64,000 bases of DNA from Rhodococcus sp. OK519 (GTDB lineage: Bacteria; Actinomycetota; Actinomycetes; Mycobacteriales; Mycobacteriaceae), in the NCBI RefSeq assembly GCF_003051005.1, contig NZ_QAOW01000010.1, forward strand, positions 124,001 through 188,000. Direction: 5' to 3'. Position 1 is the first letter of the stretch. Each line of letters starts with the position of its first letter. This document shows, piece after piece, positions 3,872-18,559 of this stretch. The position numbers and the translations under genes were made by a program. The notes beneath the pieces were generated by a model that did not search any database, was not told where the DNA came from, and worked only from the letters and a program-made list of their open reading frames with translations.

Positions 3872-4011
3872 GTGGCGATGATTGCACCAGGTACCGACAG
3901 CGGCGGGGCGCGACACGGTGGCAACCCGGCCAATGCGGGCATACCTTTGACGGTGAGGGCTCGATCGCGAGTGGCTACGCGAGGCGACCGGGCCCTCGCA
4001 GGTGAATGCTG

Positions 4012-5370: not shown

Positions 5371-5955
5371 TCAGTTGTTCGGCTGTCCGACCGGGATGGT
5401 TTCGCCCAGCTCGCCGGCGTCGTGGCCGTCGCCGCAGGCGCAGTCGTCACCGCAGCCGCCGCATCCGCCGGCGTAGGAGTCGTCGTCGGCGTCGCAGTCG
5501 AGGACGCCACCGAACTTGGCGGCAAAGTCGTCGTCGAGGTCGTGGGTGAGCTCGTGGATCTCGTCGACCAGGTTGATCAGGTGCTGCGGCGCGAACGGGT
5601 CGGCATCGACGATGGTCGAGACCAGCAGGTGCTCGTCCTCGAGGGTGAAGCGCATACGCGGCCACTCGGCGGACAGCTCGACGAGCTGCTCGACGGCCTT
5701 CGTGCGATCAGCGATGTCGGTGACGATCGAGGACCACACGTGCAGCTGCGGGCCGTCCTCCGCGACGGTGACGTAGACGCCGAAGCCGTGGACCGGGATC
5801 GCGATGTCGCCGTCCTCGTCGGTCTCCGGCGCGCTGCCGAGCAGCTCGGTGAGCGTCTGCACAGCCAGGGCCTGCAGCTGAGCGTGCTCCTCCGTGGCGA
5901 TCGCGAGGGCGCCGTCGATCTGGAGCGGCTGTTCGGTGGTGTCGTGCTCGGTCAT
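5371..5955 (-). CDS. YbjN-domain protein with cysteine-rich tail
   Basis: 194 residues. Residues about 20-140 form a YbjN / T3SS-chaperone-like alpha-beta domain (IPVHGFGVYVTV, PRMRFTLEDEHLLVS). After it comes an acidic linker and a Gly/Cys-rich tail with six cysteines (GGCGGCGDDCACGDGHD) that could bind a metal. YbjN domains are thought to be peptide-binding or stress-linked; the tail is an extra. ATG 5955 is the only sensible start. It converges on the slipin gene and is the last conserved gene before the accessory island. Confidence 0.75.
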   Translation of the reverse strand: MTEHDTTEQPLQIDGALAIATEEHAQLQALAVQTLTELLGSAPETDEDGDIAIPVHGFGVYVTVAEDGPQLHVWSSIVTDIADRTKAVEQLVELSAEWPRMRFTLEDEHLLVSTIVDADPFAPQHLINLVDEIHELTHDLDDDFAAKFGGVLDCDADDDSYAGGCGGCGDDCACGDGHDAGELGETIPVGQPNN

Positions 5956-6204
5956 GATTCCCCTGTCCGGCGCCGGCCGGATCTACGGTTCGGGCGCTGC
6001 AAAGTCGGTGTCTCGTGGGTCTCAACGGTAGCGTGGGCGGCGCCGGGGATACGCAGGAGGACCGCCGACCCAAAGATGTATCGACGTCCGCGAGAGAACC
6101 CTGACGGGGTGTGCCAGCTTAGCGCCCGTTTGCGCCAAACGATAGTTAGCTCTGGTCTGTGGCCTGCAAATCAACTGAACCATGCGTATTCCCAGGGGAT
6201 TTGG

Positions 6205-6491
6205 CATTCAATCCGTAGTGTAAGGGTGCGTACGACAACGCCTTGATGGAGACGGTCATGGCCTGTTCAGGACCATGATGCATCTGCACTCAGGTGTTCC
6301 ATCGGGCTCGTACAAGACGATCTCCGACGTCGAGTTGGCCACCACGGGATGGGCGGACTGGTCCAATGCCCGCCGGCTCCATCTGAGCCTCGGGATGGCC
6401 ACACGCAATCGGCCACGAGCACGCCTGCTACGTGGCTCTCACGACCGAGCCGAAGCCCGTATAAGAGGCATGCAGAACCTGGGGCGGTTCA
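6205..6491 (+). mobile_element. decayed 3' end of an IS3-family insertion sequence
   Basis: Across several frames this stretch encodes the C-terminal part of an IS3-type OrfB integrase: YDNALMETV at 6227-6253, then DVELATTGWADW and RRLHLSLGMAT near 6328-6400, then ALTTEPKPV-stop by 6463. The expected GLFKTE segment at 6253-6285 is broken by frameshifts and the WYNNRR motif reads WSNARR. It ends with CCTGGGGCGGTTCA (to 6491), which matches the TGAACCGCCCC terminal repeat I associate with actinobacterial IS3 elements. The left part of the element is missing, so it is inactive. Confidence 0.7.
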
Positions 6492-6687
6492 ACTTTCGAT
6501 GAGCGCAAGCGAGCACTTTTGCTGGGCGTCATCACAGCCTTGACCCTGTACTTGATGGTGACCGACCTACGGGTGCTGGACATGATGACACCGCTTCCAG
6601 CGGAATCGGTGATCCCGCTCTCTCTGTGTCCACTACCCCTATAGAGCTTCGCTTCAGCGAGGCAAAGCATTGGTTCAAGATGGGGGC
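6492..6687 (+). other. short leftover frame between IS remnant and vsr
   Basis: Directly after the IS end a frame is open from 6495 to a stop at 6642-6644 (FDERKRALLLGVITALTL ...) and reads as a short hydrophobic segment. It has no start of its own and could be the tail of a gene interrupted by the insertion. I see no recognised domain or promoter motif here. Confidence 0.25.
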
Positions 6688-7149
6688 ATGGCTGACCATC
6701 TTAGTAAGGCGGGTCGCTCGCGGAACATGGCCGCGATTAGATCGAAGGATACGAAACCGGAGCTGGAATTACGGTCGGGCCTGCAGCGCGCAGGAGCTAC
6801 CGGGTATCGCTTGCACCGAAAGGACGTACCTGGCCGACCTGATGTCGCCTTCATCCGGTGGAAGGTCGCAGTCTTCGTCGATGGCGTTTTCTGGCACGGC
6901 CACCCTGACCACTGGGATCCGGAGAAGGCAGCGTCGAACTACTGGCGGCTGAAGATCGCCCGCAACATTGAGCGCGACCGAGTCGCGGATGCAATACTCG
7001 CTGAACTCGGCTGGCGCACCGTTCGTATCTGGGATCTTGATGTCCGTGATCATTTGGATGAATCCGTCGAAAAGGTACTCAGCGCCCTGCGCGCCGCCGG
7101 CAGGCCAGGGCTCTCCCAAATTGACACAGGGCAAGACACTGAGGGCTGA
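6688..7149 (+). CDS. vsr: very short patch repair (Vsr) endonuclease
   Basis: 153 residues. Vsr nicks beside the T of T:G mismatches that arise when 5-methylcytosine deaminates, so it accompanies cytosine-5 methyltransferases like the one at 13769. Visible family residues are D52 (GRPDVAF), F68-W69-H70 (GVFWHGH), N93 and D97 (ARNIERD), positions that match the E. coli active-site numbering almost exactly, plus the MAAIRSKDTKPE opening helix. The cysteine of the E. coli CFWHRH zinc site is absent. ATG 6688 follows a G-run; an in-frame TTG at 6670 is possible. It converges on the DUF3883 gene with 30 bases between stops. Confidence 0.9.
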   Translation: MADHLSKAGRSRNMAAIRSKDTKPELELRSGLQRAGATGYRLHRKDVPGRPDVAFIRWKVAVFVDGVFWHGHPDHWDPEKAASNYWRLKIARNIERDRVADAILAELGWRTVRIWDLDVRDHLDESVEKVLSALRAAGRPGLSQIDTGQDTEG

Positions 7150-7179
7150 ATCGGTGGCTCAAGCAGCCGTCTACCTCCA

Positions 7180-8010
7180 TCAGGAGGGGAGCCGACCCGC
7201 GCCGTCCATTCCGAGCTGAGGTATCCCGTTGGCGATGACTTCGGCAGGGACTTCGAGCTTGCATGAGGCCCAGCTCCCATAGGGGCTGGTGTCGCGCGGC
7301 ACGTTTGCGGCGATCCACGCGTTCGGAACGGAGCCGATACCGGCGATCTCAAAATCAGCCGTCAGGCGCACGGTGACAAGCACCCAATGGTGATCGCGCA
7401 GCATCACTTGATACTCGTTCCGCGAGAGGTACGCGGTGAAGCGCCCGAGCCGGGTGGTGCTCTTCACCTCCAGATGTGCGGAGATCTCTCCCAGAGAAAC
7501 GTCGATGTCGTATCCAAATCCGTCGGACCGTGAGGAGACTTGATCGACACGGCCGTCCAATGTCTGACTAAGCAGAACGAGGAGAGCCGCCTCGCCTGCG
7601 GCGCCCACCCGCTCTCGAGCCGCGGTATCAACCTTGCCCCAGCTAGAGACAAGCTGCTCGTACACCGCGCTCGCGTCGAGGCCTAGTGCGGCTCCGGCCG
7701 AAATAATGTCCGTGGGCAGCTCGTCGGGCGACTGCACGAGTTCGTCGGCATCCTTTACCCAGGGCGGGGCGGCCTTTTCAAAGATCGCGCTCAGCACCTG
7801 GTTAGCCGCAGGGATCGGTGAACCCACGTTCACAAGTAGGTCGAGGTCGCGCACCCATGTGAGCGCGGTCGTGTACTGGGTGGGCGTCAAGTCGCTGTAG
7901 TGCGCGTGGGTCGTCAGCAGCGCATGGGCACGCGGAACTCCCCCGCTCGTGGGGAGAATCTCCAGCCAGCGTTTCGCAGCAAGCAGGACCGGATCAGGAG
8001 GAAGACGCAC
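7180..8010 (-). CDS. DUF3883 protein with PD-(D/E)xK-like nuclease motif
   Basis: 276 residues, third gene of the minus-strand trio. The N-terminal half is helical and unrecognised. From about residue 130 it matches DUF3883 (the C-terminal domain of NO VEIN proteins): GAAGE at 136-140, SDGFGYDIDV at 162-171, HLEVKSTT at 179-186 and a following SRNEYQVM / HHWVLVTV pair. D168 or D170 with E181 and K183 is the arrangement of a PD-(D/E)xK nuclease core, so DNA cleavage is a reasonable inference. GTG 8010 overlaps the end of the helicase gene by 17 bases, which implies coupled translation and a shared function. Confidence 0.8.
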   Translation of the reverse strand: MRLPPDPVLLAAKRWLEILPTSGGVPRAHALLTTHAHYSDLTPTQYTTALTWVRDLDLLVNVGSPIPAANQVLSAIFEKAAPPWVKDADELVQSPDELPTDIISAGAALGLDASAVYEQLVSSWGKVDTAARERVGAAGEAALLVLLSQTLDGRVDQVSSRSDGFGYDIDVSLGEISAHLEVKSTTRLGRFTAYLSRNEYQVMLRDHHWVLVTVRLTADFEIAGIGSVPNAWIAANVPRDTSPYGSWASCKLEVPAEVIANGIPQLGMDGAGRLPS

Positions 8011-9823
8011 GCAGGTGCCCCATCAGCGCCTGAAGGTCGCCGCGGTCCAGACCCCCGCCGATTGTCGGCTCCTCGTCCAAATCGGCTAGCTGCTTCACTG
8101 CCGGGTCATCGAGGATCCCGCCCATGAACGTCAGCTTGTCGGCAAGGCGCGCCGCAACTACCTCATCGATGGTTCCCTGCGAGGCCAGAACGGTGATACG
8201 GGTTCTGGTGTCTCGACTGAGGCCAAGGCGGTGAATACGGTCGAGACTCTGCAGGAAGCGGCCTGCGGCGAAGTCCCGATCCACGTACACGGCGTCATGG
8301 CACTCGTGGTGGAGGCTAATCCCTTCGCCAAGCGTGGCGGGGTTGGAAAGCAGAACCATGCAATTCGGGTCGGTCCTGAACCGCCGGATCTGCTCGTCGC
8401 GGTCCGGGGTGCCGCCGTGTACCACCGCGGGACCAAACTGGGAAAGCACCCGCTGCATGGTGCTGAGGCTGCGGATGAAGGTCGACCATACAAGCGTCTT
8501 ACGCCCCTGAGTAGCGTTCTCGGAGACCATGGCGAGAACCTCCTGGTACTTCGCGGACATCTCGTAGGCGGGAAGGTCCTGCATCAGCTGGTAGAGCGAC
8601 GAGCGCTCCGGCACAGGAAGCGGCGGGACCTGGTATGCGAGCGGCTCATAGCGGGTGGTCCCGACTGCGAGGAGCGCAGGGCTGGTTGCAGCCATCAGCA
8701 TATAGATCAGGATGCGGCCCAGCGCCTGGAAGTCCCCCTCGAATCCAGCTGCGCGGGCAGAGAACTGACCGACAAGCGCCTCGTAGATCTCGGCGTGAAG
8801 AGGTGGGAGTGGGATAGTTCGAAGTGTCGTCTCCACTGGCGGCAGGTCGAGCTCCCCCTTGGTTGTCCGGGTGAAGAGCGGCCGAAGCGCGCGGCTGGCA
8901 TCAGCGAGGTCACCGCCGTCAACCGCCCGGAGAACGCTTTGGCGACCAGTCCCCGGCCACACGAATCCGAAGAGGTTCTCCAGATCCCGGACGCCATTCG
9001 GGGCAGGCGTGCCTGTCAGGATGAGGCGCCGCCTACTGCGGGGCCCGAGAGCGAGACACGCAGCACCGTACGCCCCGTCTGCCCCGAGCTTCATCCGATG
9101 AGCCTCGTCGAGAATGATCATCGACGGCCGCTCCGCGAGCCAGCGCCCAAAGTAACTCACCATATTGGGCAGGCGTTCGTAGTTGACGATGATGGCATGT
9201 GTAGTACTCGCCGGGATTCCGTCAGCGATCTCCATTGACATCGGCGGGTTCAGGCATTGGACGTTCTCGTGTTGCCACGCATCGTAGCTCGACTTTGGCC
9301 CGACGATGAGCAGCCGCTCAATCCCTTCCTGGCGGCGCAGCGCCTGAAACACGGCCAGACCGACTCTCGTCTTGCCGGCGCCAGGTACGGAGAAATTCGC
9401 TCCGTGGCGCAGCGACAGTAGCTTGGCAACGTCCCTCCGCTGGAACCAGGTAAGGTCTCCTACCCATTCCGGGCCTAGAAGGGCGGGCACTGACTCGGGA
9501 CTGACCGCAGTCGGCACATCTGGGGTTCGCAGCTGGTCGGAAACTGTCTGGGCATCCTGGAGCGAGTCGACTACGAGCGCCTGTAGCTGCGCGTCCCAGG
9601 TAACCTCGCCATCCGCCTTGTGCGGCCAGCCATTGAGTATCTCGAGGTTGGTCAGGAGGTCGTCGAGCTCGACCTCGACACTGCCTGGCGACCGCTGGGT
9701 GCTCGTCTGGAAACTGACCGCGAGTCGGCGAAGATCGTCCTCCAGGCCCGGTCGCGCGATGAGACGCGCGCGCGTCACCTCGGCTGCGAGACCGATGGTG
9801 AGGCTGGGGCTGTCGGCTGCCAT
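7994..9823 (-). CDS. SNF2-family DEAD/DEAH helicase (defence-island type)
   Basis: About 609 residues. An N-terminal region of about 120 residues of unknown fold precedes the ATPase. Motifs seen in order: Q-like WFQRRDV, Walker A SVPGAGKT (about 145-152), DEAH (LDEAHRM), motif III LTGTPAPNG, then a C-terminal lobe with TLVWSTF, NPATLGEGISL and QSLDRIHRLG (arginine finger). This is a double-stranded-DNA translocase type rather than a strand separator. The ATG at 9823 overlaps the stop of the ParB-fold gene (TGATG); a GTG at 9826 is equally possible. Its end overlaps the DUF3883 gene, so it probably feeds or controls that nuclease-like partner. Confidence 0.88.
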   Translation of the reverse strand: MAADSPSLTIGLAAEVTRARLIARPGLEDDLRRLAVSFQTSTQRSPGSVEVELDDLLTNLEILNGWPHKADGEVTWDAQLQALVVDSLQDAQTVSDQLRTPDVPTAVSPESVPALLGPEWVGDLTWFQRRDVAKLLSLRHGANFSVPGAGKTRVGLAVFQALRRQEGIERLLIVGPKSSYDAWQHENVQCLNPPMSMEIADGIPASTTHAIIVNYERLPNMVSYFGRWLAERPSMIILDEAHRMKLGADGAYGAACLALGPRSRRRLILTGTPAPNGVRDLENLFGFVWPGTGRQSVLRAVDGGDLADASRALRPLFTRTTKGELDLPPVETTLRTIPLPPLHAEIYEALVGQFSARAAGFEGDFQALGRILIYMLMAATSPALLAVGTTRYEPLAYQVPPLPVPERSSLYQLMQDLPAYEMSAKYQEVLAMVSENATQGRKTLVWSTFIRSLSTMQRVLSQFGPAVVHGGTPDRDEQIRRFRTDPNCMVLLSNPATLGEGISLHHECHDAVYVDRDFAAGRFLQSLDRIHRLGLSRDTRTRITVLASQGTIDEVVAARLADKLTFMGGILDDPAVKQLADLDEEPTIGGGLDRGDLQALMGHLRASSS

Positions 9824-11229
9824 CACCTGGACCGGACGGCGTCGAGGAGCCAGGCGACACCTTCCCCCGGCGTCGGGTAGGTGCGTCCTGCCTGCCGTCC
9901 GAGTCTTTCGAGGCTTTCGCGGAGCACGATGAGAGCATCATCGAACGCCTCATCGTCGAGGGCACGTTTGGCCTTCGCCTCGGCGAACTCATTCGCACAC
10001 TGTGTGACGTAGTCCGCCGCGTCGGTCAGGCGCTCGGGTACGGCCGTCTGGCGCTTCACCAGCTCCGCGTTCTGTCCGGCAAGCTTGACCGCGATATCGA
10101 ACGTCTCGCGCGCCTGCTTCATCACCGACGACGCCTCTGCGACCTCTGCGGGGGACGCAATGCTGCCGTCGCGACACACGGCCTTTGCCCGCAACAGCTG
10201 GTTCGTCAAAGCCTCGGTGGCCGCGGAGTCGCTACTCGGACTCGGCAAGGTGGCCCCTGGAATGCCTGGCACCGAAATTGGCGCCAAAGCGGCCACCTTG
10301 GGCTTGAGGTCTTCAGGGAGGCGGCTCTCGATATACCGCGTGTGGAAGTCCGCCTCGGCGAGACGCAACGAGGTCTTCGGGTAGTCGAGAAGTACCATTG
10401 CCAGCCGCGACTGCATCAGGCGCTTCGCGGCGTCAGGGTCCGTTGTGGACAGCTTGGTGTAGTCGCGGTGGAGCTCACGCAACTTCTCCTGGTGCTGCTC
10501 GAAGTCGATCAGACGCAGGGACGCACCGTCGTCAGTTTTGCTGCGGTCGATGGAATCGAGGATCGCGTTGTAGACCCAACGGTCACGCTGCAGGGTCGCG
10601 GGCTTGATGTTGAAATCCTTGGCAACGTCGGCCTCGGAGCGTCCGCGGCCGAGTTCTTCGTCAATCGCAATCAGGCGGTTGATATACGAGTAGTCGCGCC
10701 GCCGGTCCTTGCGCAGCTGCAGCGAGAGCTCGACATTGTTAATGTCCTGACGCGACGTGTCGTCGGGGAGGACGCCGACCCGGATGTTTGGCTCGCCCAG
10801 ATCGATCAGCGCTGCCGCCCGGGTGTTGCCATCGACGAGGATCCCGTGCGGGCTCACGATCCCGGGCTCGCGCTGGCCGACGTCATCGAGCTCGTCCATC
10901 AGAGCGGTGTAATCGGGGTCGGTCTGGTCTGGGTTGGCAGGCCGCTGCCTGAGTAGGTCGTGGAGGTAGCTTTGGGCTGCCTGCCCCCAGGGTTCTTCAT
11001 CGATTGCCCTGTTTCGTACCGGGTCGAGAGCTCGTTGGGCGCGGATCCGGTGGGTGTCCGGATTGAAGTAGAGCATGTCGACCGGCATCGAGATCACATA
11101 GAGGTGGCGCGTCTCGCCCCGCCAGTCGATCGTGACCTTCGCGCCATCCTCGGTCATCGCCTGCTTAAGTCGCTGACTTATGACGGCCTTGATCTCCTCC
11201 CCCTTGGGAGGAATGCCGAAACCGGACAT
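9823..11229 (-). CDS. ParB/Srx-fold protein, first gene of the helicase trio
   Basis: 468 residues. A ParB-like domain lies at about 40-170 with the box GILVDGNTRAAAL (DGNTR at 133-137). Next comes a helix-turn-helix-like segment (SEADVAKDFNIKPATLQRDR) and a long helical C-terminal half, probably coiled coil. The GERR motif of CTP-binding chromosome ParB is not present, and there is no ParA nearby, so this is not a partition system; ParB-fold proteins in defence islands often act as DNA-binding or nucleotide-using partners. ATG 11229 has AAGGAG eight bases upstream and replaces a longer frame starting at 11301. It is transcribed away from the HNH-like gene. Confidence 0.75.
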   Translation of the reverse strand: MSGFGIPPKGEEIKAVISQRLKQAMTEDGAKVTIDWRGETRHLYVISMPVDMLYFNPDTHRIRAQRALDPVRNRAIDEEPWGQAAQSYLHDLLRQRPANPDQTDPDYTALMDELDDVGQREPGIVSPHGILVDGNTRAAALIDLGEPNIRVGVLPDDTSRQDINNVELSLQLRKDRRRDYSYINRLIAIDEELGRGRSEADVAKDFNIKPATLQRDRWVYNAILDSIDRSKTDDGASLRLIDFEQHQEKLRELHRDYTKLSTTDPDAAKRLMQSRLAMVLLDYPKTSLRLAEADFHTRYIESRLPEDLKPKVAALAPISVPGIPGATLPSPSSDSAATEALTNQLLRAKAVCRDGSIASPAEVAEASSVMKQARETFDIAVKLAGQNAELVKRQTAVPERLTDAADYVTQCANEFAEAKAKRALDDEAFDDALIVLRESLERLGRQAGRTYPTPGEGVAWLLDAVRSR

Positions 11230-11353
11230 AGACGTACTCCTTGGGCTGAATACATGACGCTGAAACCAGTACGGCAGCATCATTGCAAACGAGTCCGACA
11301 TTTCGTCGATATCGGTACGGTGAGCCTAGCGAAGAGAATTGGAGGATCCATCC
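11230..11353. promoter_or_regulatory. divergent control region of the island
   Basis: This 124-base gap separates the minus-strand trio from the plus-strand HNH-like gene and must hold at least the promoter of the trio. It is visibly less GC-rich than the flanking genes and has an eight-base palindrome CGATATCG at 11307-11314. No consensus -35/-10 pair is convincing. The arrangement allows both arms to be controlled together. Confidence 0.45.
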
Positions 11354-12070
11354 GTGGAACAGCCAGTGTGGGATGACCCAGCGTGCTCGGTGGGAACCAT
11401 GGTCCGCGGGGCACTGTGGCTCCTTCAGGTGGTCGGCGAAGGAAACACCTTCACCAAAAACCAGCTCCGAGACGCCTTCCCCGGCGTCTCCCAGATCGAC
11501 CGCCGCGTCCGCGACCTACGGGACTACGGATGGGTCGTCTACTCAAGTACCGAGGACGCGTCGCTGCTGACCGAGGACCAGCGGTTCGTCAAGGCGGGTG
11601 TCGCCGTCTGGGACCCGAAAGCGCGGCGAGCCGCCGCGCCGCAGAAGGCGATGTCAAGCAAAGATCGCCAGGTCGTTCTGGCGCGGGACGGCTACATGTG
11701 CACACTGTGTGGCATCGCCGGGGGCGAGCTGTATCCCGACGACGCAATCATGACAGCCGTACTCTCTGTCTCCCGGCGCACAGTGACCGGCACCGATGGG
11801 CACAAGACGGAAGCTCTCGTCACTGAGTGCAAGCGATGCCGGTCCGGTCGCGGCGGCGCAGCTATCGACGTGAACGCGGCGGTTGCCGCTGCCAGTGGGC
11901 TCGGGCCAGGCGAATTCCGTCGCCTACTTCGGTGGCTGGAACGGGGCCGCCGCGGTGCTACCGAGCTCGACCGCGCCTGGATTGCCTGCCTCAGTGTGCC
12001 GCCCGAACAACGAGAGGGAGTCGCTGACCGGCTTCGCGCGCTGCAGATTTCACGCGCGTCGGATCTGTAG
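11354..12070 (+). CDS. HNH-like zinc protein with winged N-terminal part
   Basis: 238 residues. Residues about 12-65 form a small helical domain that resembles a winged helix (KNQLRDAFPG ... RRVRDLRDYGW). From about 105 the pattern RQVVLARDGYMCTLCG is the usual entry of an HNH nuclease, and two CxxC pairs (C116/C119 and C149/C152) would hold zinc. The catalytic histidine normally found between them (in a V-D-H-I-like strand) is replaced by LSVSRR, so it may bind DNA without cutting. GTG 11354 follows GGAGG by eight bases; an upstream TTG at 11339 is less likely. It precedes the NaeI-family gene, with a 336-base gap and a hairpin between. Confidence 0.65.
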   Translation: MEQPVWDDPACSVGTMVRGALWLLQVVGEGNTFTKNQLRDAFPGVSQIDRRVRDLRDYGWVVYSSTEDASLLTEDQRFVKAGVAVWDPKARRAAAPQKAMSSKDRQVVLARDGYMCTLCGIAGGELYPDDAIMTAVLSVSRRTVTGTDGHKTEALVTECKRCRSGRGGAAIDVNAAVAAASGLGPGEFRRLLRWLERGRRGATELDRAWIACLSVPPEQREGVADRLRALQISRASDL

Positions 12071-12102
12071 CAACCGTCATCAGGCGGCGTCTTCCTTCCC
12101 GT

Positions 12103-12141
12103 CGCGGCTGTGCTCACCCACAACAGCCAGGCACAGCCGCG
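12103..12141 (+). terminator. hairpin after the HNH-like gene
   Basis: Perfect 11-base arms CGCGGCTGTGC (12103-12113) and its complement (12131-12141) around a 17-base loop, 33 bases past the HNH-like stop. The rest of the 336-base gap to 12406 shows no gene I can support; the promoter of the restriction gene presumably lies in it. Confidence 0.55.
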
Positions 12142-12406
12142 GCGCGGATGGCTACACCGATCGCGCACGCGTCGGTAATGGGAATGCGTTACCCGTCGTC
12201 TTGTGGGCGATGACCCTGCGTAGTAACTCGTCGATCATCCACGTTGGAGAGGCCGGAGATGGCCGTGCCATGTCCGGCGTTTCTCGTAGATAGACATACC
12301 GCCCACCATACGTCCCATGTCGGTCGCGAACGTTACTGTCTGCCTTCCCGCGGACGTCACCTAGGCGCGTACCAGTTCCTCGGGTTATGTGCGCTAGCTT
12401 CGGAGC

Positions 12407-13354
12407 GTGCCGCCAAGAACACCTGTAGTGCCCCCCGGGTCTTCGTGCCAGCCGGACGAGCGGAATGGATTCAAGTCGTCATCACACTCAGTTCTTCATC
12501 CCGATCACGATCCTGAGCTGCAAGCGGTGTTTGAGTGGCTGACGGCGTTGCCGTTAGCGGATCGGCTCCGGGCGGCAGCGGATGACGCTGTGAGGTACGT
12601 CCTCGATGGGGCGCGCACATGGCGGTTCGATCTGCTCGACCCAAAGGTGGACTCCGATGAACGCTCGTCTGTCGGCACCAAGCTCCAGTATCACCTCATT
12701 GAGCGTCTCGGCTTGAAAAAGGTGCCCCCACTCGACACCGAGATCGTCGGCGTAGCCGTCGAGATCAAGGGATCAGTCCGGAATTCGACGGCGCCATGGA
12801 TGATTCCGCGCGAAGGACAGTGTCAAGTCACGCTACTGATCCGCATCGACCCGAAGGCTAATCGGTTTGCAGCCTGGCTGATGCGGACTCATCGCGTGTG
12901 GTTGAGTGGCGGGAAAGGTAACCAGGACCTCAAACGGTCGCCTTTGGTCGACGCGTTTCGCGCATATGCGCTGCCACTTGTGGTGTGGAGCGACCTACCA
13001 CCCCAGCCGCTCAGGCTTCTTAGCTTTGAACAGATCGAGACCGTGTTCGGCAGCGACGGTCTCCGCAAGCGGGCGACGGCGCTCTTCATCTACCTGCCCG
13101 AGGTCGTCATCCCAAGGTCGTCTCTGGTGACTGTTGGCGCAGGGCTCCATGATCCGATGAAGCGTGTGCGAGAGGCTAAGGCAACCCTGCGACGTGACCA
13201 CGGCCTCATAGTGCTCGTCGGCAAGTGGGTTGATGAGCGCGAGGCCGCGCTCGCTTTCGGCCATGAGATTGGTCCAGAGGACTGGGTCGCCGTTCCGCGG
13301 GCGCGCTTTGCTGATTTGGGAGTCGAGATTCCGCCACTGCGGACATCGGGGTGA
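12407..13354 (+). CDS. NaeI-family type II restriction endonuclease
   Basis: 315 residues, close to the 317 of NaeI. The catalytic block reads GTKLQYHL (90-97), LDTEIVGVAVEIK (109-121), then WMIPREGQCQ and NQDLKRS, which line up with NaeI. The NaeI active site as I recall it is E70, D86, D95 and K97; with the same spacing (16, 9, 2) this protein has Q94, D110, E119 and K121. NaeI also has a C-terminal CAP-like topoisomerase/effector domain; residues about 165-315 here would be that part. NaeI cuts GCCGGC and needs two sites; site preference here is inferred. Start GTG 12407 has a close GGAG and is not certain. Confidence 0.85.
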   Translation: MPPRTPVVPPGSSCQPDERNGFKSSSHSVLHPDHDPELQAVFEWLTALPLADRLRAAADDAVRYVLDGARTWRFDLLDPKVDSDERSSVGTKLQYHLIERLGLKKVPPLDTEIVGVAVEIKGSVRNSTAPWMIPREGQCQVTLLIRIDPKANRFAAWLMRTHRVWLSGGKGNQDLKRSPLVDAFRAYALPLVVWSDLPPQPLRLLSFEQIETVFGSDGLRKRATALFIYLPEVVIPRSSLVTVGAGLHDPMKRVREAKATLRRDHGLIVLVGKWVDEREAALAFGHEIGPEDWVAVPRARFADLGVEIPPLRTSG

Positions 13355-13768
13355 CCAGGGCCAAGGGCGGCATCCTCGTGACCTGTGTTGCCTAGCCCGC
13401 AATGTGAGCGCGACCCTCGCCGCCAACTTGACGATCTGCGTACCCCCACGTCGGACTTGCTTGCGGGCACGCACTCCGCATACAGGTAGGATAGCGCGCC
13501 AGGCGCCGAGTAGTTGCCGTCGGGCGGCGATGCCTGGATCGTGCTCGTACCTGGCGTTTGATCTCAGAGGCAGGGCTTTGTCGGGGGCCGGCGGTACCGT
13601 GCACGCATGTTCGATACCCCTGAGTAGTTCGCCAACCACTTCGCTGCGCTACCCGGCGGTTGGTCTGGGGCGGGTGGGTCTACGGGAAGATGCTGATGCT
13701 GCTCGTCCGCATCGACAGGTTGCCAGACCTTCGAGGACTGTCTGCGTGATATTGGAAAGGAAGTAGCG
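13355..13768 (+). other. 414-base gap before the methyltransferase gene
   Basis: No gene I can support. A possible decayed short frame starts at ATG 13607 (MFDTPE, then an in-frame TAG) and continues one frame over as GWVYGKMLMLLVRIDRLPDL to a stop at 13747-13749. If real it would have sat where control proteins of restriction systems are often found. The methyltransferase ribosome site (GGAAAGGAAG) closes the gap. Confidence 0.3.
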
Positions 13769-15037
13769 GTGACTCTCGACCTCCGCGTCATCGAAATCTG
13801 TGCTGGTGCCGGTGGTCAGGCGCTCGGCCTTGAGCGTGCCGGATTCGAGCACGAACTCGCAGTCGAGCTAGACCACAACGCTGCTGCGACGCTCAGTCAC
13901 AACCGCCCCGAGTGGAAGGTGGCCATCGGCGACGTCGCGAACCCGGAAGTCTGGAATCCCGCAGATTACGCTCCAAGCCATGGGCGCCAATCGATCGATC
14001 TTCTTGCCGGCGGAGTCCCTTGTCCACCATTCAGCATCGCAGGCAAACAGCTGGGCGCAAATGACGAACGTGACCTATTCGCGTGGGCGGTCGAGCAGGT
14101 CAGTGTTCTCCAGCCACGTGCGCTACTGCTTGAGAATGTCCGCGGCCTCAGCATGCCCCGCTTTGCCGGATACCGGCAACATGTCCTCGACCGCCTCCGT
14201 GAGTTTGGGTACTCGGCAGAATGGCGACTCCTCCATGCCTCCGATTTTGGTGTCCCTCAACTTCGCCCACGATTCGTCCTTGTTGCACTGAAATCCGAGG
14301 ACTTTGCGTACTTCCACTGGCCTACTCCCCTCGGCAACGTCCCCACTGTCGGCGAAACACTGCTGCCGCTTATGTCTAGGAACAAGTGGCGGGGGGCAAA
14401 AGCCTGGGCGCGGCAGGCGAACTCCATCGCACCGACAATCGTCGGCGGATCAAAGAAGCATGGGGGCGCCGATCTAGGGCCAACCCGCGCCAAGCGTGCG
14501 TGGGCGGCACTGGGGGTGAATGGGCTCGGAATCGCAGACGCGCCTCCGGCTCGGGAGGATACGTTCGACGTTGGGCCAAAGCTGACGTGCGAAATGGTCG
14601 CGCGACTCCAGGGATGGGACGACGATGAATTTTGGTGGGAGTTCACGGGACGAAAGACGTCGGTTTATCGGCAGATCGGAAATGCGTTCCCGCCACCAGT
14701 TGCGCACGCAATCGGCAAGCAGATTGTCGATGCGCTCGCCCACCGCGGACATGTGCGTGCAGTAGACCCCGAACGCGATTCCGATCCGATTTACCGCGTA
14801 CTGCGCGATGCCACTGATTTTCTGACTGCTCGACAGATAGTGAACAGGTCGGCAGTCAAGTTGGACGACCCAGAAATCGATCGCCGAATCAGCATCCTTG
14901 GCAGTGACTTCGAGATCGTGAAGGAGCAACGCTCGACCGGACTCGCATACAGGCTCCTCGGATTTCGCGGATTCGTGGGGCAGGATGATCACATCCGTCA
15001 TGACTACCTTCGGACGAAGACATCGAAGGTTAGCTGA
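13769..15037 (+). CDS. DNA (cytosine-5) methyltransferase, NaeI-type partner
   Basis: 422 residues. Motif I EICAGAGGQALG (9-20), motif IV GGVPCPPFS with catalytic C85, motif VI LENVRG (about 121), motif VIII PQLRPRF and motif X GNAFPPPVA are all present, so it should be active. The target-recognition region spans about 190-300. An extra C-terminal domain (about 340-422: YRVLRDATDFLTARQIV ... LAYRLLGF) looks like a winged helix, an addition not found in minimal enzymes. It would protect the sites cut by the NaeI-family enzyme upstream. GTG 13769 has GGAAG upstream. Its presence explains why vsr is on the same island. Confidence 0.92.
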   Translation: MTLDLRVIEICAGAGGQALGLERAGFEHELAVELDHNAAATLSHNRPEWKVAIGDVANPEVWNPADYAPSHGRQSIDLLAGGVPCPPFSIAGKQLGANDERDLFAWAVEQVSVLQPRALLLENVRGLSMPRFAGYRQHVLDRLREFGYSAEWRLLHASDFGVPQLRPRFVLVALKSEDFAYFHWPTPLGNVPTVGETLLPLMSRNKWRGAKAWARQANSIAPTIVGGSKKHGGADLGPTRAKRAWAALGVNGLGIADAPPAREDTFDVGPKLTCEMVARLQGWDDDEFWWEFTGRKTSVYRQIGNAFPPPVAHAIGKQIVDALAHRGHVRAVDPERDSDPIYRVLRDATDFLTARQIVNRSAVKLDDPEIDRRISILGSDFEIVKEQRSTGLAYRLLGFRGFVGQDDHIRHDYLRTKTSKVS

Positions 15038-15705
15038 CTACTCCACCGTGAGGTCGGGGGAGCAGCACGCGTGCCGACGAAGAGCGCATAGCTCGGGCGA
15101 CGACCAAGGTTTGGGTCCGGCGGTGCGGTGCGCCGTATGCATGTCGAATCGGGCAGGGGGTAGGCTCAGAGACCCGGCAGTCCAGACGCCGTGGGCTGTG
15201 CTGGTGGCGATGGCGGTCTGCCGCACGGTTCTCACCGAAGGTCCGGCGCTCGAGATCTCTCTCAACTTCCCGGGCCACCGGGATCTTCGGTGGGCTGGGA
15301 GCCCTTTTCGCATCCTTCGGCGCCCTGGTGGTGTCGCGATTGATTCGACCGGGCGCCGTGCTGCCCGCGTCCGAGGGAATTCGGCACCCGGGCTGAAGCT
15401 TCGAGTCCTACCTGCCGTGGGAATCGGTGGCCAGGGTCAAGCGCTCGCCCATAATGGGCACCGGATGATCCTAGTGGTCGGATTCGCGAATGCACACTGG
15501 ACCAGCCGCTGCAATACGCCGAACTGGCGAATCGACAAACTGCCCCGTTCCGATGATCGAGTTCGACTGCCGCAGCTTCTCGATGGACGATGTGGTGTTG
15601 CTTCACTTCGTGAGTGTCTACGCGATCAATCCTGCGATGCGCGTTGAGCTCGGGATTGATACTGCGCGAGGCGTTTCGATGCTCGCGACTTTGCGTGACG
15701 TCCGA
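15038..15705. other. 668-base gap at the right edge of the island
   Basis: I find no frame with protein-like composition on either strand. A ten-base palindrome ATTCGCGAAT lies near 15482-15491. The stretch is probably leftover DNA from the island insertion, with the 3' untranslated end of the FAD oxidase gene at its right. No tRNA or attachment-site repeat is visible. Confidence 0.4.
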
Positions 15706-17082
15706 TCACGACAACACAGCACCCGGATTCAGGATCCCCAACGGATCGAGCGCGTTCTTGACCCGCCGATTCAACTCCATGACGTCCTCGCCCAGTTGAT
15801 TCGGCAGCCAATCCCGCTTGAGCCGCCCGACACCGTGTTCACCGGAGATCGTGCCGCCCAAAGCGATTGCGAGATCCATGACGCGGGCGAAGGCGGTGCG
15901 GGCGCGATCGGTCATGTCGGGATCGGTGGGGTCGAAGACGATCAGCGGGTGAGTGTTGCCGTCGCCGGCGTGGGCGACGGTGCAGATGAGGACGTCGCAG
16001 TCCTCGGCGATCGCCTCGACGCCGGTGATGAGTGCGGGCAGCTGCTGCATCGGCACGCCGACGTCCTCGAGGAGGAGGCTGCCCATTGCCTGCACGGCGG
16101 GGAAGACGGATCGCCTTGCGGCGGTGAAGGCGTCGCCTTCGGCGGGGTCGTCGGTCGCGAACACTTCGGTGGCGCCGTTCTTTTCGCACGCCGCGACGAT
16201 GGTCGCTACTTCCTGGGCGCCGGCGGCGCCGGGGGCGTCGGATTGGGCGAGTAGCAGCGCGCGGGCGTTGCGGTCCAGGCCCATGCGGACGGCGTCCTCG
16301 ACCGCGTTGATGGAGGCGTGGTCCATGAATTCGAGCATCGCCGGGCGCATGTCCCGGGTGATCGCAAGGACGGCGTCGGCGGCCGACTCGACGGACTCGA
16401 ACGACGCGACCACTGTCGACGCCGGCGGCTGCGCCGGGATCAGCCGCAGCGTCAGCTCGGTGATGATGCCGAGCGTGCCCTCGCTGCCGACGAACAGCTT
16501 GGTCAGCGACAGCCCGGCGACGTCCTTGAGTAGCGGGCCGCCGAGTCGGACGGCGGTGCCGTCGGCGAGGACCACCTGCATGCCGAGCACGTAGTCGGTG
16601 GTCACCCCGTACTTGACGCAGCACAACCCGCCGGCGTTGGTGGCGGCGTTGCCGCCGATCGAGCAGATCTCGTACGACGACGGGTCCGGCGGATACCAGA
16701 GCCCGTGCTCGGCGGCGGCGGTCTTCACCTCGGCGTTGAGCAGCCCGGGCTGGGTGACGGCGACCCTGGTGACGGGGTCGACGGTGATCTCCCGCATCCG
16801 CTCGGTGCTCAGCACGATCCCGCCGTCGACGGCGCTTGACCCGCCCGACAGTCCGGAGCCCGCGCCACGCGGCACCACCGCGATGCGTTGCTCCGACGCC
16901 CACCGCATCACCGCCTGCACGTCCTCGGTGCAGGTCGCGCGGACCACCGCGACCGGCGTGCCGGCGTTGGGGTCGGCGGCCCAGTCCTGGCGGTAGCCGG
17001 CGGTCATGTCCGGGTCGGTCAGCACGGCGCCGTCGGGCAGCGCGCCGATGAGTTGGGCGAGAACAGTCGGGTCCACCGTCAT
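15706..17082 (-). CDS. FAD-linked oxidase, GlcD / D-lactate dehydrogenase type
   Basis: 458 residues. The N-terminal FAD-binding PCMH domain has PRGAGSGLSGGSSA (about 71-84) and SIGGNAATNAGG (about 141-152). The C-terminal FAD-oxidase domain ends with the family signature GEHGVGRLKRDWLP and LDPLGILNPGAVL. Such enzymes oxidise D-2-hydroxy acids such as glycolate or D-lactate and pass electrons to a quinone or flavoprotein; the exact substrate cannot be read from sequence. ATG 17082 (MTVDPTVLAQL) is the natural start, although the frame stays open far upstream. It is the first conserved gene right of the accessory island. Confidence 0.88.
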   Translation of the reverse strand: MTVDPTVLAQLIGALPDGAVLTDPDMTAGYRQDWAADPNAGTPVAVVRATCTEDVQAVMRWASEQRIAVVPRGAGSGLSGGSSAVDGGIVLSTERMREITVDPVTRVAVTQPGLLNAEVKTAAAEHGLWYPPDPSSYEICSIGGNAATNAGGLCCVKYGVTTDYVLGMQVVLADGTAVRLGGPLLKDVAGLSLTKLFVGSEGTLGIITELTLRLIPAQPPASTVVASFESVESAADAVLAITRDMRPAMLEFMDHASINAVEDAVRMGLDRNARALLLAQSDAPGAAGAQEVATIVAACEKNGATEVFATDDPAEGDAFTAARRSVFPAVQAMGSLLLEDVGVPMQQLPALITGVEAIAEDCDVLICTVAHAGDGNTHPLIVFDPTDPDMTDRARTAFARVMDLAIALGGTISGEHGVGRLKRDWLPNQLGEDVMELNRRVKNALDPLGILNPGAVLS

Positions 17083-17175
17083 GTCTCCATCATGCCCGCG
17101 GGCGCCCGAAATGCGGCGGAAAGGAGCGACCGGGCGATAGCGTCGGAGGGACCGTACGTCGACGAGGGGGTTGTG

Positions 17176-17799
17176 GTGGCGGAGTTCGAGCAGGACCGGG
17201 ATCTGTTGATCCGACTGTGGCGGATGTGGGCGAAGCGGGCCGCGGAGTTGTCCGACGAGCAGTGGACGACCGAGACGCGGCTGCCGGGTTGGGCCGTCCG
17301 CGACGTCTACGTGCACGTGACCCCGGACGTCCTGATCGCGATGCTGGCCGCGCCCGCCGCAGACGGCGATGCGAAGGTCACCAGCGCTGCGGAGATGCTT
17401 CGCGTCTTCAACGCCGACCCCGCCGCGACCGCCCCGATGCACGCACAGCTCGCCGAGATGGTCCGGCAGATGGCCGCCGATGTCGAGCGCGAATCCATCG
17501 TCGCGCGCTTCGAGTCGGAGCTGCCCGACGCGTTCGAGCGCCTTGCCGGTCTGAGCCGCGACACCGTCATCGCGCACCCCATTCTGGAGTCGGTGTCGCT
17601 CGGCGCCTTCCTGGACATGGCGATCATGGAAGCGACGGTCCACTGGCTCGACGTGATCGACGCCGTCGGCGGTGACGAGCCGGAGTCGATGGCTCTCGAG
17701 CGTTCGCGGGACGTACTCGCTGCGGTGCCCGATCCGCTGGCGTTCGTCGAGGCGGCGTCGGGACGGTCGGGCGGCCCGGTGTTGCCGGTGATGCGCTGA
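17176..17799 (+). CDS. mycothiol-dependent maleylpyruvate isomerase-family protein
   Basis: 207 residues in the DinB-like four-helix fold of TIGR03083-type enzymes: LPGWAVRDVYVHV (about 36-48) carries the usual W-x-V-R-D-hydrophobic motif, and IMEATVHWLDV (about 149-159) supplies the conserved His. The family uses mycothiol in isomerisation or transfer reactions; the substrate here is unknown. GTG 17176 is preferred because AGGGGG lies five to nine bases upstream; GTG 17173 is adjacent. It is divergent from the FAD oxidase and followed 19 bases later by the DUF429 gene, probably as one transcript. Confidence 0.75.
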   Translation: MAEFEQDRDLLIRLWRMWAKRAAELSDEQWTTETRLPGWAVRDVYVHVTPDVLIAMLAAPAADGDAKVTSAAEMLRVFNADPAATAPMHAQLAEMVRQMAADVERESIVARFESELPDAFERLAGLSRDTVIAHPILESVSLGAFLDMAIMEATVHWLDVIDAVGGDEPESMALERSRDVLAAVPDPLAFVEAASGRSGGPVLPVMR

Positions 17800-17818
17800 G
17801 GGTCGATAGCCTCGCGGC

Positions 17819-18559
17819 ATGAGGACTGTCGGCATCGACCTTGCGGCCGAACCTGCGAAAACCGCTGTTGCGATGATCGATTGGGGTGAGGGATCGGCTC
17901 GGGTCGTCGGATTGCGGCTCGGGGCGGCGGACGACGACGTGGTGGAAGCGGTCCTGGGTGCCGACCGATCCGGGATCGACGCACCCTTCGGGTGGCCGGA
18001 TGCGTTCGTCGACTTCGTAGTCGCGCATCACAATCGGGAACCACGCCGCGAGCTCGAGCTGAGTAGTCGTGCCGGGCGGCTGCCGCTGGTCCGACGGCGG
18101 ACCGACCGGGTGGTGCACGAGGTGACGGGCATCGTCCCGCTCAGCGTGTCGGCTGATCTGATCGCGCACGTGGCGTTGCGGTGTGCCGGTCTGCTGGCGC
18201 GGCTCGCGGTCGAGGGCGTCGACACGGATCGCGTCGCGGGCACCGTTGCCGAGGTCTATCCGGCGGCCGCGCTGCAGCAATGGGGTCTGCCCTTCCGCGG
18301 ATACAAGGGAGCAACCAATCGCGAGAAGCTGATGCAGTTGGTGGCGAGTTTCGATGATGCGACGCCGTACCTGGATCTCGCCGACTTCCGTGGACAGTGT
18401 GAAGCGTCGGATGACGCCTTCGACGCGGTGGTGGCTGCGGTGATCGCGCGCGCAGTCGCGGAAGGACAGACGGGGTTGCCACACGGAGTCGACGCCGAAG
18501 TTGCTGGTCGCGAGGGGTGGATCCACCTGCCGGAGGGTCCGCTGTCGGCGCTCGTGTGA
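17819..18559 (+). CDS. DUF429 protein (RNase H-like fold)
   Basis: 246 residues. Opens MRTVGIDLAAEPAKTAVA, the DUF429 acidic strand, with IDAPFGWP at about 60-67 and an EASDDAFDAVVAA acidic motif near 198-210, all typical of the family. The fold resembles RNase H/Holliday-junction resolvases with D6 and D202-D203 as likely metal ligands, but no activity has been shown that I know of. It follows the mycothiol-type gene closely and no transcription stop is evident between them. Confidence 0.8.
   Translation: MRTVGIDLAAEPAKTAVAMIDWGEGSARVVGLRLGAADDDVVEAVLGADRSGIDAPFGWPDAFVDFVVAHHNREPRRELELSSRAGRLPLVRRRTDRVVHEVTGIVPLSVSADLIAHVALRCAGLLARLAVEGVDTDRVAGTVAEVYPAAALQQWGLPFRGYKGATNREKLMQLVASFDDATPYLDLADFRGQCEASDDAFDAVVAAVIARAVAEGQTGLPHGVDAEVAGREGWIHLPEGPLSALV

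Follow-up and report, generated by a model that had tools for sequence, protein, structure and literature searches.

A seven-gene Rhodococcus island that looks like an undescribed defence machine with a non-cutting restriction enzyme as its reader

The island at positions 6688..15037 of the analyzed stretch of Rhodococcus sp. OK519 DNA (64,000 nt; the window) looks like an undescribed defence machine built around a restriction enzyme without its cutting centre, kept probably as a reader. Its heritable unit is a block encoding an HNH-like protein, a ParB-type protein, an SNF2-family motor and a DUF3883 protein (the quartet), with a C5 methylase nearly always nearby, and NaeI is optional to this module. 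We think it somewhat probable that the unit is a restriction-modification (R-M) machine, by an inferred mechanism in which the disarmed restriction enzyme would read unmethylated sites and pass the DNA to a clamp, a motor and a nuclease. All seven defence-type genes, which an earlier note on this DNA had grouped into one island, were confirmed as real and are listed here with the flanking genes.

5371..5955, minus strand: TY-Chap1 (YbjN-like) chaperone gene, left hotspot flank, common to relatives (Pfam 8.3e-39)
6688..7149, plus strand: Vsr mismatch endonuclease (Pfam Vsr 2.4e-24; NCBIfam vsr 126 bits over cut-off)
7180..8010, minus strand: DUF3883/NOV_C protein, probable PD-(D/E)XK nuclease effector (Pfam NOV_C 1.5e-6)
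7994..9826, minus strand: SNF2-family motor (Pfam SNF2 2.2e-13)
9823..11229, minus strand: ParB-type clamp protein (ORF from 11301, start set at ATG 11229)
11278..11300, minus strand: 23-bp conserved element of the promoter region of the divergent ParB and HNH genes (alignment-derived pattern)
11354..12070, plus strand: HNH-like zinc protein, predicted site reader (ORF from 11339, start set at GTG 11354)
12407..13354, plus strand: NaeI-family restriction endonuclease, an R gene that is live but optional and uses the common methylase (Pfam NaeI 2.2e-26)
13769..15037, plus strand: C5-cytosine methyltransferase (Pfam 3.6e-61)
15706..17835, minus strand: FAD-linked oxidase gene, right hotspot flank, common to relatives (Pfam 5.7e-68)

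The DUF3883 and SNF2 genes overlap by 17 bp and the SNF2 and ParB genes by 4 bp. The site of the island is a defence hotspot, four other occupants of which match the models for Mza, PDC-S37/Hhe, type IIG and DISARM. The pattern of the 23-bp element was taken from an alignment of the divergent ParB/HNH regions; of 42 divergent loci, 18 have it directly upstream of ParB, none of 38 co-directional ones does, and it was not found elsewhere in these 80 loci. A further match in the window, at 3899, is probably due to chance.

To follow the island in other genomes, 209 relatives of the ParB protein were found and the best 80 were read as loci. HNH-like and SNF2 genes lie near ParB in all 80 of these loci; the corresponding numbers are 79 for a C5 methylase, 70 for Vsr, 51 for DUF3883 and 22 for NaeI. 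These counts are not fully independent, as some of the loci come from the same genomes as members of the genome set (for example, L022/G092, L034/G394, L045/G340, L053/G073 and L078/G016) and contigs L066 and L089 belong to one MAG. Of 394 genomes, 9 have the ParB gene, and it is these 9 that also have SNF2. Pairwise distances correlate strongly among HNH, ParB, SNF2 and DUF3883 (r 0.87-0.92), moderately between the methylase and the quartet (r 0.59-0.65) and weakly between NaeI and the quartet (r 0.27-0.51), while r is 0.18-0.36 for Vsr; the distance table is without L066 and L089 and, for SNF2, also without the split L032. On the shared genomes and the distance correlations we rejected the view that the ParB, SNF2 and DUF3883 genes are chance neighbours, and on the 22/80 presence of NaeI with its weak correlation that it is the centre of the island.

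The earlier note had thus been right that the extra genes need an account of their own, since they form one conserved unit travelling with the methylase. The unit is, however, the quartet including the HNH protein and not the trio of SNF2, DUF3883 and ParB proteins that the note had singled out, nor is the island built on NaeI as it had proposed. The set is not confined to one strain, as relatives occur in other genomes, and among the relatives read the homologues do not lie mostly away from R-M genes; either outcome would have counted against the note.

Neither NaeI nor a second HNH gene is present in 52 of the 80 loci, and the methylase is kept in 51 of those 52. DUF3883 is absent from 29 loci, some of them cut by contig ends; 18 of the 29 are also without NaeI and a second HNH, so that no cutter is assigned there. 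A plasmid of S. albidoflavus carries ParB, SNF2 and DUF3883, with no HNH-family, Vsr or methylase match within the 25 kb searched and no methylase match anywhere on the plasmid.

The HNH-like protein consists of a winged helix and an HNH-like part with four Cys residues, and its predicted structure models well; Foldseek returned no significant match with this model. It can be aligned with live relatives, and two of these exceed the PF01844 cut-off; it is kin to restriction enzymes that elsewhere, in plain R-M systems, accompany the methylase family of the island. The four Cys are retained, in keeping with the HNH fold and its zinc site. In the alignment column of the catalytic His, however, this residue is missing from 79/79 readable module copies, with R in 72 of them and H in none, whereas it is retained in 5/5 complete copies from plain R-M systems. 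Nearly all module copies have likewise lost the two Asn that the live form carries. The His count omits the over-long ORF of L053 because of a length limit (L053 was without His in an earlier alignment), and at this column the truncated L066 shows a gap. The HNH tree comprises 79 module rows and 14 others, 93 in all, and long branches meet among the 14. With the catalytic His lost, it is improbable that the HNH-like protein works as a live nuclease.

The other components retain the residues expected of working proteins, as scored by alignment column counts. The catalytic Cys and ENV of the methylase are intact in 79/79 readable copies, D168, E181 and K183 of DUF3883 in 52/52, and E25, D52 and H70 of Vsr, which repairs G:T mismatches at 5mC sites, in 71/71. 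The Walker A, DEAH, TGTP and Arg-finger residues of SNF2 are intact in all alignable of 81 copies. The ParB-type protein has an NTP-binding N-domain, an HTH domain and a long helical C-part. The predicted structure shows the N-domain and HTH fold of the ParB/Noc/KorB family, and the protein models as a CTP-binding ParB, for which CTP binding and DNA clamping are predicted; its GNTR sits where the usual GERR box of ParB lies. Unlike the ParB, Noc and KorB clamps, it has the long C-part and adjoins a motor and a restriction-type reader rather than segregation genes.

NaeI itself appears to be a regular type II enzyme, with D110 and K121 intact in 23/23 copies and a cognate C5 methylase whose family also stands beside NaeI in plain systems. 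The pair does not explain the whole island, because the quartet is co-inherited without NaeI. We read 20 methylase loci outside the module, the best-scoring first of 41 genomes with a match after exclusion of module genomes (one, L150, lies near a contig start), and 12 of them contain NaeI and the methylase without the quartet. On the methylase tree, 9 changes between module and plain contexts are required. NaeI recognizes GCCGGC, and relatives of the methylase are paired with NaeI and NgoMIV endonucleases; the specificity of the island methylase is probably GCCGGC. An excerpt of PMC4081073 gives NgoMIV as G|CCGGC and prints NaeI differently.

PADLOC and NCBIfam gave no name for the unit when the seven proteins were scanned, in line with the earlier view that this is not a named defence system. 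We found no account of the gene set in the open-access PMC literature; preprints and most subscription journals lie outside this scope, and an earlier description is possible. The island shares with NaeI/NgoMIV type II R-M systems a methylase family accompanied by a type II endonuclease, often Vsr, and probably the GCCGGC site. Those systems, however, comprise two or three genes with a live endonuclease and are without ParB, motor and DUF3883, while the endonuclease is optional in the island. DISARM is defined by DrmA, DrmB and DrmC, BREX by PglZ and BrxX/PglX, and Druantia type II by DruE, DruF and DruG with DruM. DISARM, BREX and BREX-related systems likewise combine a methylase with a translocase or SNF2 helicase and use methylation as the self mark. 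Among the PADLOC matches listed for the seven proteins, there was no DrmA, DrmB or DrmC, only similarity to DrmD and DrmMII; no PglZ or BrxX/PglX, the motor having only weak DrmD and BrxH matches; and no DruE, DruF or DruG, although the island methylase falls in the DruM2 model family (4e-197).

The MORC/paraMORC R-M operons bring together an SWI2/SNF2 helicase, an HNH or EcoRII-like nuclease, a cytosine methylase and Vsr (Iyer 2008, PMC2292703, in part). In contrast to the island, they have a GHKL ATPase at their centre, and the sections of that article consulted do not mention ParB. No GHKL/HATPase match was obtained by Pfam in the seven island proteins. A GHKL ATPase lies beside the Nocardioides relative L022 (Pfam; same contig as L011) and probably beside a second relative, L023, judged from length and position. 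The island could have a ParB clamp in the place of GHKL, with the HNH enzyme dead. SNF2 fused to DUF3883, called a novel restriction-endonuclease domain, also occurs in R-M operons with a HEPN/AAA+ protein (Ava_2192), and the available portion of that source (PMC3710099) does not describe ParB together with a dead restriction enzyme.

More distant ParB-SNF2 pairs show a similar arrangement, beside other methylases, in two further phyla. In 4/4 alphaproteobacterial plasmids of one type, the pair adjoins an apparently dead PD-(D/E)XK enzyme, X, whose motif D and E are lost in the modules and kept in 8/8 plain copies read, out of 14 places where X relatives lie outside the four modules. X has no Pfam match, and its PD-(D/E)XK assignment thus comes from the motif. 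Sau3AI recognizes GATC and reads DNA with its C-terminal domain, which is non-catalytic. Three Bacillota plasmids (two nearly alike) encode this domain alone near ParB-SNF2, with the catalytic half absent; the alignment of the L. plantarum partner, located after ParB-SNF2, with the Sau3AI C-terminal domain (2reu, 3.6e-42) spans residues 12-247 of 247, and this partner differs from Sau3AI in being without the N-terminal catalytic half. No dead restriction-enzyme partner was found in 7/10 Bacillota loci examined, and three of the loci examined have no methylase in the annotated flank. A BglII-like case in Paracoccus (L177), read alongside the known catalytic-residue positions of BamHI and BglII, is only a hint, since it is a single sequence whose matches are weak (Pfam 1.6e-5, slightly below the family cut-off; E about 0.5 against BamHI and BstYI).

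In the mechanism we favour, the methylase would mark host DNA, probably at GCCGGC, and the dead HNH protein would bind unmethylated sites of invading DNA without cutting. It would then load or license the ParB-type NTP clamp; the SNF2 motor, which is translationally coupled, would move along that DNA, and DUF3883, where present, would cut it. Vsr would repair deaminated 5mC, and NaeI, when present, would act as a second, direct cutter on the common methylase. The methylation-aware layer suggested in the earlier note is still the best reading.

We also considered that the island holds two unrelated systems, a plain NaeI-methylase-Vsr R-M system and a mark-independent HNH-ParB-SNF2-DUF3883 system. 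The NaeI-methylase pairs lacking the quartet, the moderate methylase-quartet correlation, the switches in the methylase tree and the plasmid without a methylase match are consistent with this. We nevertheless regard it as unlikely, because the methylase persists in 51 of the 52 loci devoid of NaeI and a second HNH, endonucleases adjoining the same methylase family are homologues of the HNH protein, and similar pairing occurs with other methylases in two other phyla. Alternatively, the quartet may be a guard, in which the dead enzyme competes for unmethylated host sites and the motor assists in clearing or repairing the breaks that a live partner endonuclease introduces, limiting self-damage. 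Points in its favour are that a dead enzyme could occupy the same sites, that the window contains NaeI, and that the module of Priestia plasmid L193 adjoins a live Sau3AI-type system. However, 52 of 80 loci are without NaeI and a second HNH (the only two endonuclease types scored per locus), DUF3883 keeps its D, E and K in every copy, and in Kozakia the live-enzyme gene is in two pieces while the methylase, Vsr and the module are present, which makes a guard improbable.

That the HNH-like protein still cuts via a shifted or non-canonical active site, the quartet being a motor-assisted type II-like enzyme, would account for the 18 loci with no cutter assigned, and the retained Cys and the good model agree with it. 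We find this very doubtful given the complete loss of His, the near-complete loss of both Asn, and the partners in two other lineages that are also without catalytic residues or the catalytic half. A modification-dependent (type IV-like) attack on 5mC DNA is scarcely credible and was rejected: SNF2-DUF3883 fusions in other R-M-type operons (PMC3710099, as far as the consulted part goes) indicate that these parts are untied to one kind of target, but with its own C5 methylase nearly always and Vsr mostly nearby, such a system would attack itself.

Returning to the disarmed reader, the chances seem to us evenly balanced that it represents a general class found in three phyla or more, where an SNF2 motor together with a ParB-type CTP clamp has repeatedly adopted a disarmed type II enzyme matching the methylase, with the unmethylated site as the clamp-loading signal. 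The partner would be HNH in Actinomycetota, PD-(D/E)XK in Alphaproteobacteria and, in Bacillota, the DNA-binding half of Sau3AI, with perhaps a BglII-like enzyme in Paracoccus. If an unmethylated site is the ParB loading signal on foreign DNA, a single unmarked site would condemn the whole molecule. The predicted target sites, GCCGGC for the island family and GATC for the Sau3AI form, make the idea directly testable. If true, recognition would be separated from cutting in a new way, with a type II enzyme repeatedly disarmed and kept as the reader of a motor; immunity would gain a ParB-type CTP clamp, a device familiar from the segregation of chromosomes and plasmids; and genes annotated as restriction endonucleases could be non-cutting sensors.

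The island consists of seven intact ORFs (window 6688-15037), five of which received Pfam names (Vsr, NOV_C/DUF3883, SNF2, NaeI and C5 methylase). Two overlaps join neighboring genes:

SNF2 gene/ParB gene, overlap of 4 bp
DUF3883 gene/SNF2 gene, overlap of 17 bp

These overlaps are as would be expected if ParB, SNF2 and DUF3883 form one operon. With a Shine-Dalgarno sequence ahead of each, the most likely starts are ATG 11229 for ParB and GTG 11354 for the HNH gene. In the window Vsr (6688-7149), a His stands two residues past the conserved His, a position occupied by Cys in 70 of 71 aligned copies. Neither PADLOC nor NCBIfam gave a system name for the island; PADLOC placed the methylase within the DruM2 model family and, among the matches listed, matched the motor only weakly to ZorD, DpdE and DrmD.

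Nine of the 394 genomes searched in the class contain ParB relatives, and a search for SNF2 relatives (E<=1e-20) singles out these nine and no others. Methylase relatives (E<=1e-60) are present in 41 of the 394 genomes overall and in eight of the nine ParB genomes, and in the ninth, G317, a more distant methylase adjoins ParB; the pairing of ParB with a methylase is thus far above background. Scanning the genomes of 84,980 named species yielded 209 ParB relatives. The best 80 were retained, each with at most 10 kb of flanking sequence per side, and searched for neighbors using HMMs made from the first relatives. Among these best 80 of 209 loci, SNF2 directly adjoins ParB in all 80, HNH lies within 2.8 kb of ParB in all 80 (median gap 29 bp), and the C5 methylase lies within 7.5 kb in 79, the sole miss being the truncated locus L027, one side of which ends at the contig end. 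Vsr is found in 70, DUF3883 in 51 and NaeI in 22 of the 80. Just 5′ of ParB lies a 23-bp element (window 11278-11300) that runs from TGTC[AG].. to a TGnCATnATG-like end and is probably a promoter or operator. Within the best 80 it is restricted to this position in 18 of the 42 divergent loci (L023, L025-L029, L031-L033, L036-L038, L044-L046, L053, L057 and L059).

Pairwise distances within HNH, ParB, SNF2 and DUF3883 correlate with one another (r 0.87-0.92). The correlation with this quartet is weaker for the methylase (r 0.59-0.65) and little for NaeI (r 0.27-0.51) and Vsr (r 0.18-0.36), which indicates block inheritance of the four genes, with the methylase as a near-obligate but exchangeable partner and NaeI and Vsr as exchangeable ones. 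The earlier note regarded the island as a NaeI restriction-modification pair with extra genes. As the quartet is the block and the methylase is present in all loci but L027 while 52 of 80 contain neither NaeI nor a second HNH gene, this picture must be reversed.

The island is flanked by a TY-Chap1 gene and an FAD-oxidase gene (window 5371-17835). We compared six genomes of the same genus, four with both flanks in the stretch (L162-L165) and two with the TY-Chap1 flank only (L166 and L167). L165 carries the same module without NaeI, its SNF2, ParB, HNH and methylase being 57-69% identical, and among 21 relatives searched ParB occurs only in this genome and the window's own. PADLOC was run on four of the other five and matched them strongly to Mza (L162), PDC-S37/Hhe (L163), type IIG (L164) and DISARM DrmA (L167). 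GC content is about 0.69-0.72 in the neighboring kilobases and drops to 0.60-0.64 within the island, although values of 0.63-0.65 also occur elsewhere in the window. The island thus occupies a variable defence hotspot of this genus, whose cargo may be Mza, an Hhe-like system, type IIG, DISARM or this module.

At 20 loci with methylase relatives outside the module, the methylase is accompanied by a NaeI-like gene (12 loci), an HNH gene from the family of the window's HNH-like protein (six, one of them a fragment) or neither (three), with both in one locus; ParB was found at 0 of the 20. The live HNH relatives show the HNH signature in the alignment, and of four scanned with Pfam, two were above the HNH cut-off and two matched below it. 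In the module copies, the catalytic position is Arg in 72 of 79 and His in none, and the Asn positions are lost in nearly all, while the four zinc Cys are kept. A Foldseek search with the model of the HNH protein gave no significant match. Second HNH copies within module loci have His at the catalytic or an adjacent position in 8 of 9. Four module loci (L070:13945-17310, L072, L076 and L092) carry a second methylase with a second same-family HNH gene, and three of these four HNH genes keep the catalytic His. The residues of the other enzymes are retained: nuclease residues in 52/52 DUF3883 copies, ATPase motifs in all alignable copies of 81 SNF2 proteins, methylase motifs in 79/79 readable copies and Vsr residues in 71/71. 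The module HNH copies form one clade against 14 others (SH-aLRT 99, with a long-branch warning among the others). Loss of catalysis is thus specific to the HNH protein and, judging from the tree, old.

NaeI recognizes the same site as NgoMIV. On one plasmid from E. coli and one from Paracoccus, an NgoMIV-family endonuclease follows a methylase relative (57-58% identity), and a relative with 61% identity is found with NaeI, a live HNH protein and Vsr in Rhodococcus opacus pROB02. Because of these pairings, the methylase site is likely GCCGGC, the NgoMIV cut site being given as G|CCGGC in PMC4081073; by inference, the HNH reader would recognize the same sequence.

ParB relatives were also found on ten plasmids, nine of which provided gene contexts. 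Kozakia, Rhizobium, Azospirillum and Mesorhizobium share the gene order X-ParB-helicase-DUF3883, where X is a putative restriction-enzyme-type partner gene; a transposase precedes DUF3883 in Mesorhizobium. All four have a C5 methylase, and Kozakia, Rhizobium and Mesorhizobium also have Vsr. X had no Pfam match in the three copies scanned, but is homologous to the gene directly 3′ of the C5 methylase in eight loci examined that lack the module. All eight of these copies retain an Asp together with an (E/D)LK motif, resembling a PD-(D/E)XK site; in all four module copies the Asp is replaced by Ile or Val and the acidic motif residue is lost. The Kozakia plasmid, with methylase, Vsr and module, also has a live X-type enzyme gene beside the methylase in two pieces (L194:6676-7534), a split that might be a sequencing error.

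In three modules, one from L. plantarum and two from Priestia that are almost the same, the partner near ParB-SNF2 is a Sau3AI C-terminal domain without the catalytic half. The best matches, at 38-42%, fall in the C-terminal halves of two enzymes of the Sau3AI type, whose N-terminal halves are not convincingly matched. Over almost its full length, the L. plantarum partner aligns with the Sau3AI C-terminal domain of known structure (3.6e-42). The L. plantarum SNF2 protein (L174:5512-8100) has an N-terminal PLD-like domain, which may be a nuclease swap for DUF3883. In Paracoccus denitrificans (L177:4254-10070), an N4/N6 methylase is followed by a small BglII-like protein, ParB, SNF2 and NOV_C; the BglII-like protein has Gln at the position of BamHI's Glu pair, a single weak case from a weak alignment. 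In Nocardioides, DUF3883 is directly followed by a GHKL ATPase and a protein of 381 aa in L022:14220-17347 and, from length and position only, in L023:14233-17378, resembling MORC-type restriction-modification operons.

Other loci fit this plan poorly. Among ten Bacillota loci (L173, L174, L179, L180, L181, L182, L190, L191, L192 and L193), three have the Sau3AI-type partner and no disarmed restriction-enzyme partner was seen in the remaining seven; no methylase was found in the annotated flanks of L173, L181 and L190. On the enterococcal plasmids L173:3395-9090 and L190:5384-11059, a large HTH protein resembling a sigma factor (869 aa in L173) precedes ParB and the helicase; of 71 plasmid records from one search, 52 belong to Enterococcus. 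The ParB-helicase pair adjoins a site-specific DNA methyltransferase on Lactococcus and L. plantarum plasmids (L182:3011-11717 and L192:1010-10130), with a type III Res gene in L182. On an S. albidoflavus plasmid, ParB, SNF2 and DUF3883 adjoin a transposase, with no HNH-family, Vsr or methylase matches nearby. DUF3883 is absent from 29 of the 80 loci, 18 of which also lack NaeI and a second HNH gene and thus have no clear cutter.

The gene inventory, the loss or retention of each active site and the inheritance in a block are read from sequence; the most likely mode of action is as follows. The C5 enzyme would methylate host DNA, and the disarmed restriction enzyme would find an unmethylated site on entering DNA and, instead of cutting, recruit the ParB-type clamp. 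The SNF2 motor would act on the clamp-marked DNA, which DUF3883 or another nuclease would cut. The components have known folds, and the scheme follows restriction-modification logic. Searches of an open-access library turned up neither the gene combination nor the recurrent disarming of unrelated restriction enzymes next to one ParB-SNF2 pair, both of which would surprise a specialist. By separating reader from cutter, one unmarked site would condemn the whole molecule, and the reader would stay harmless on briefly unmethylated host sites.
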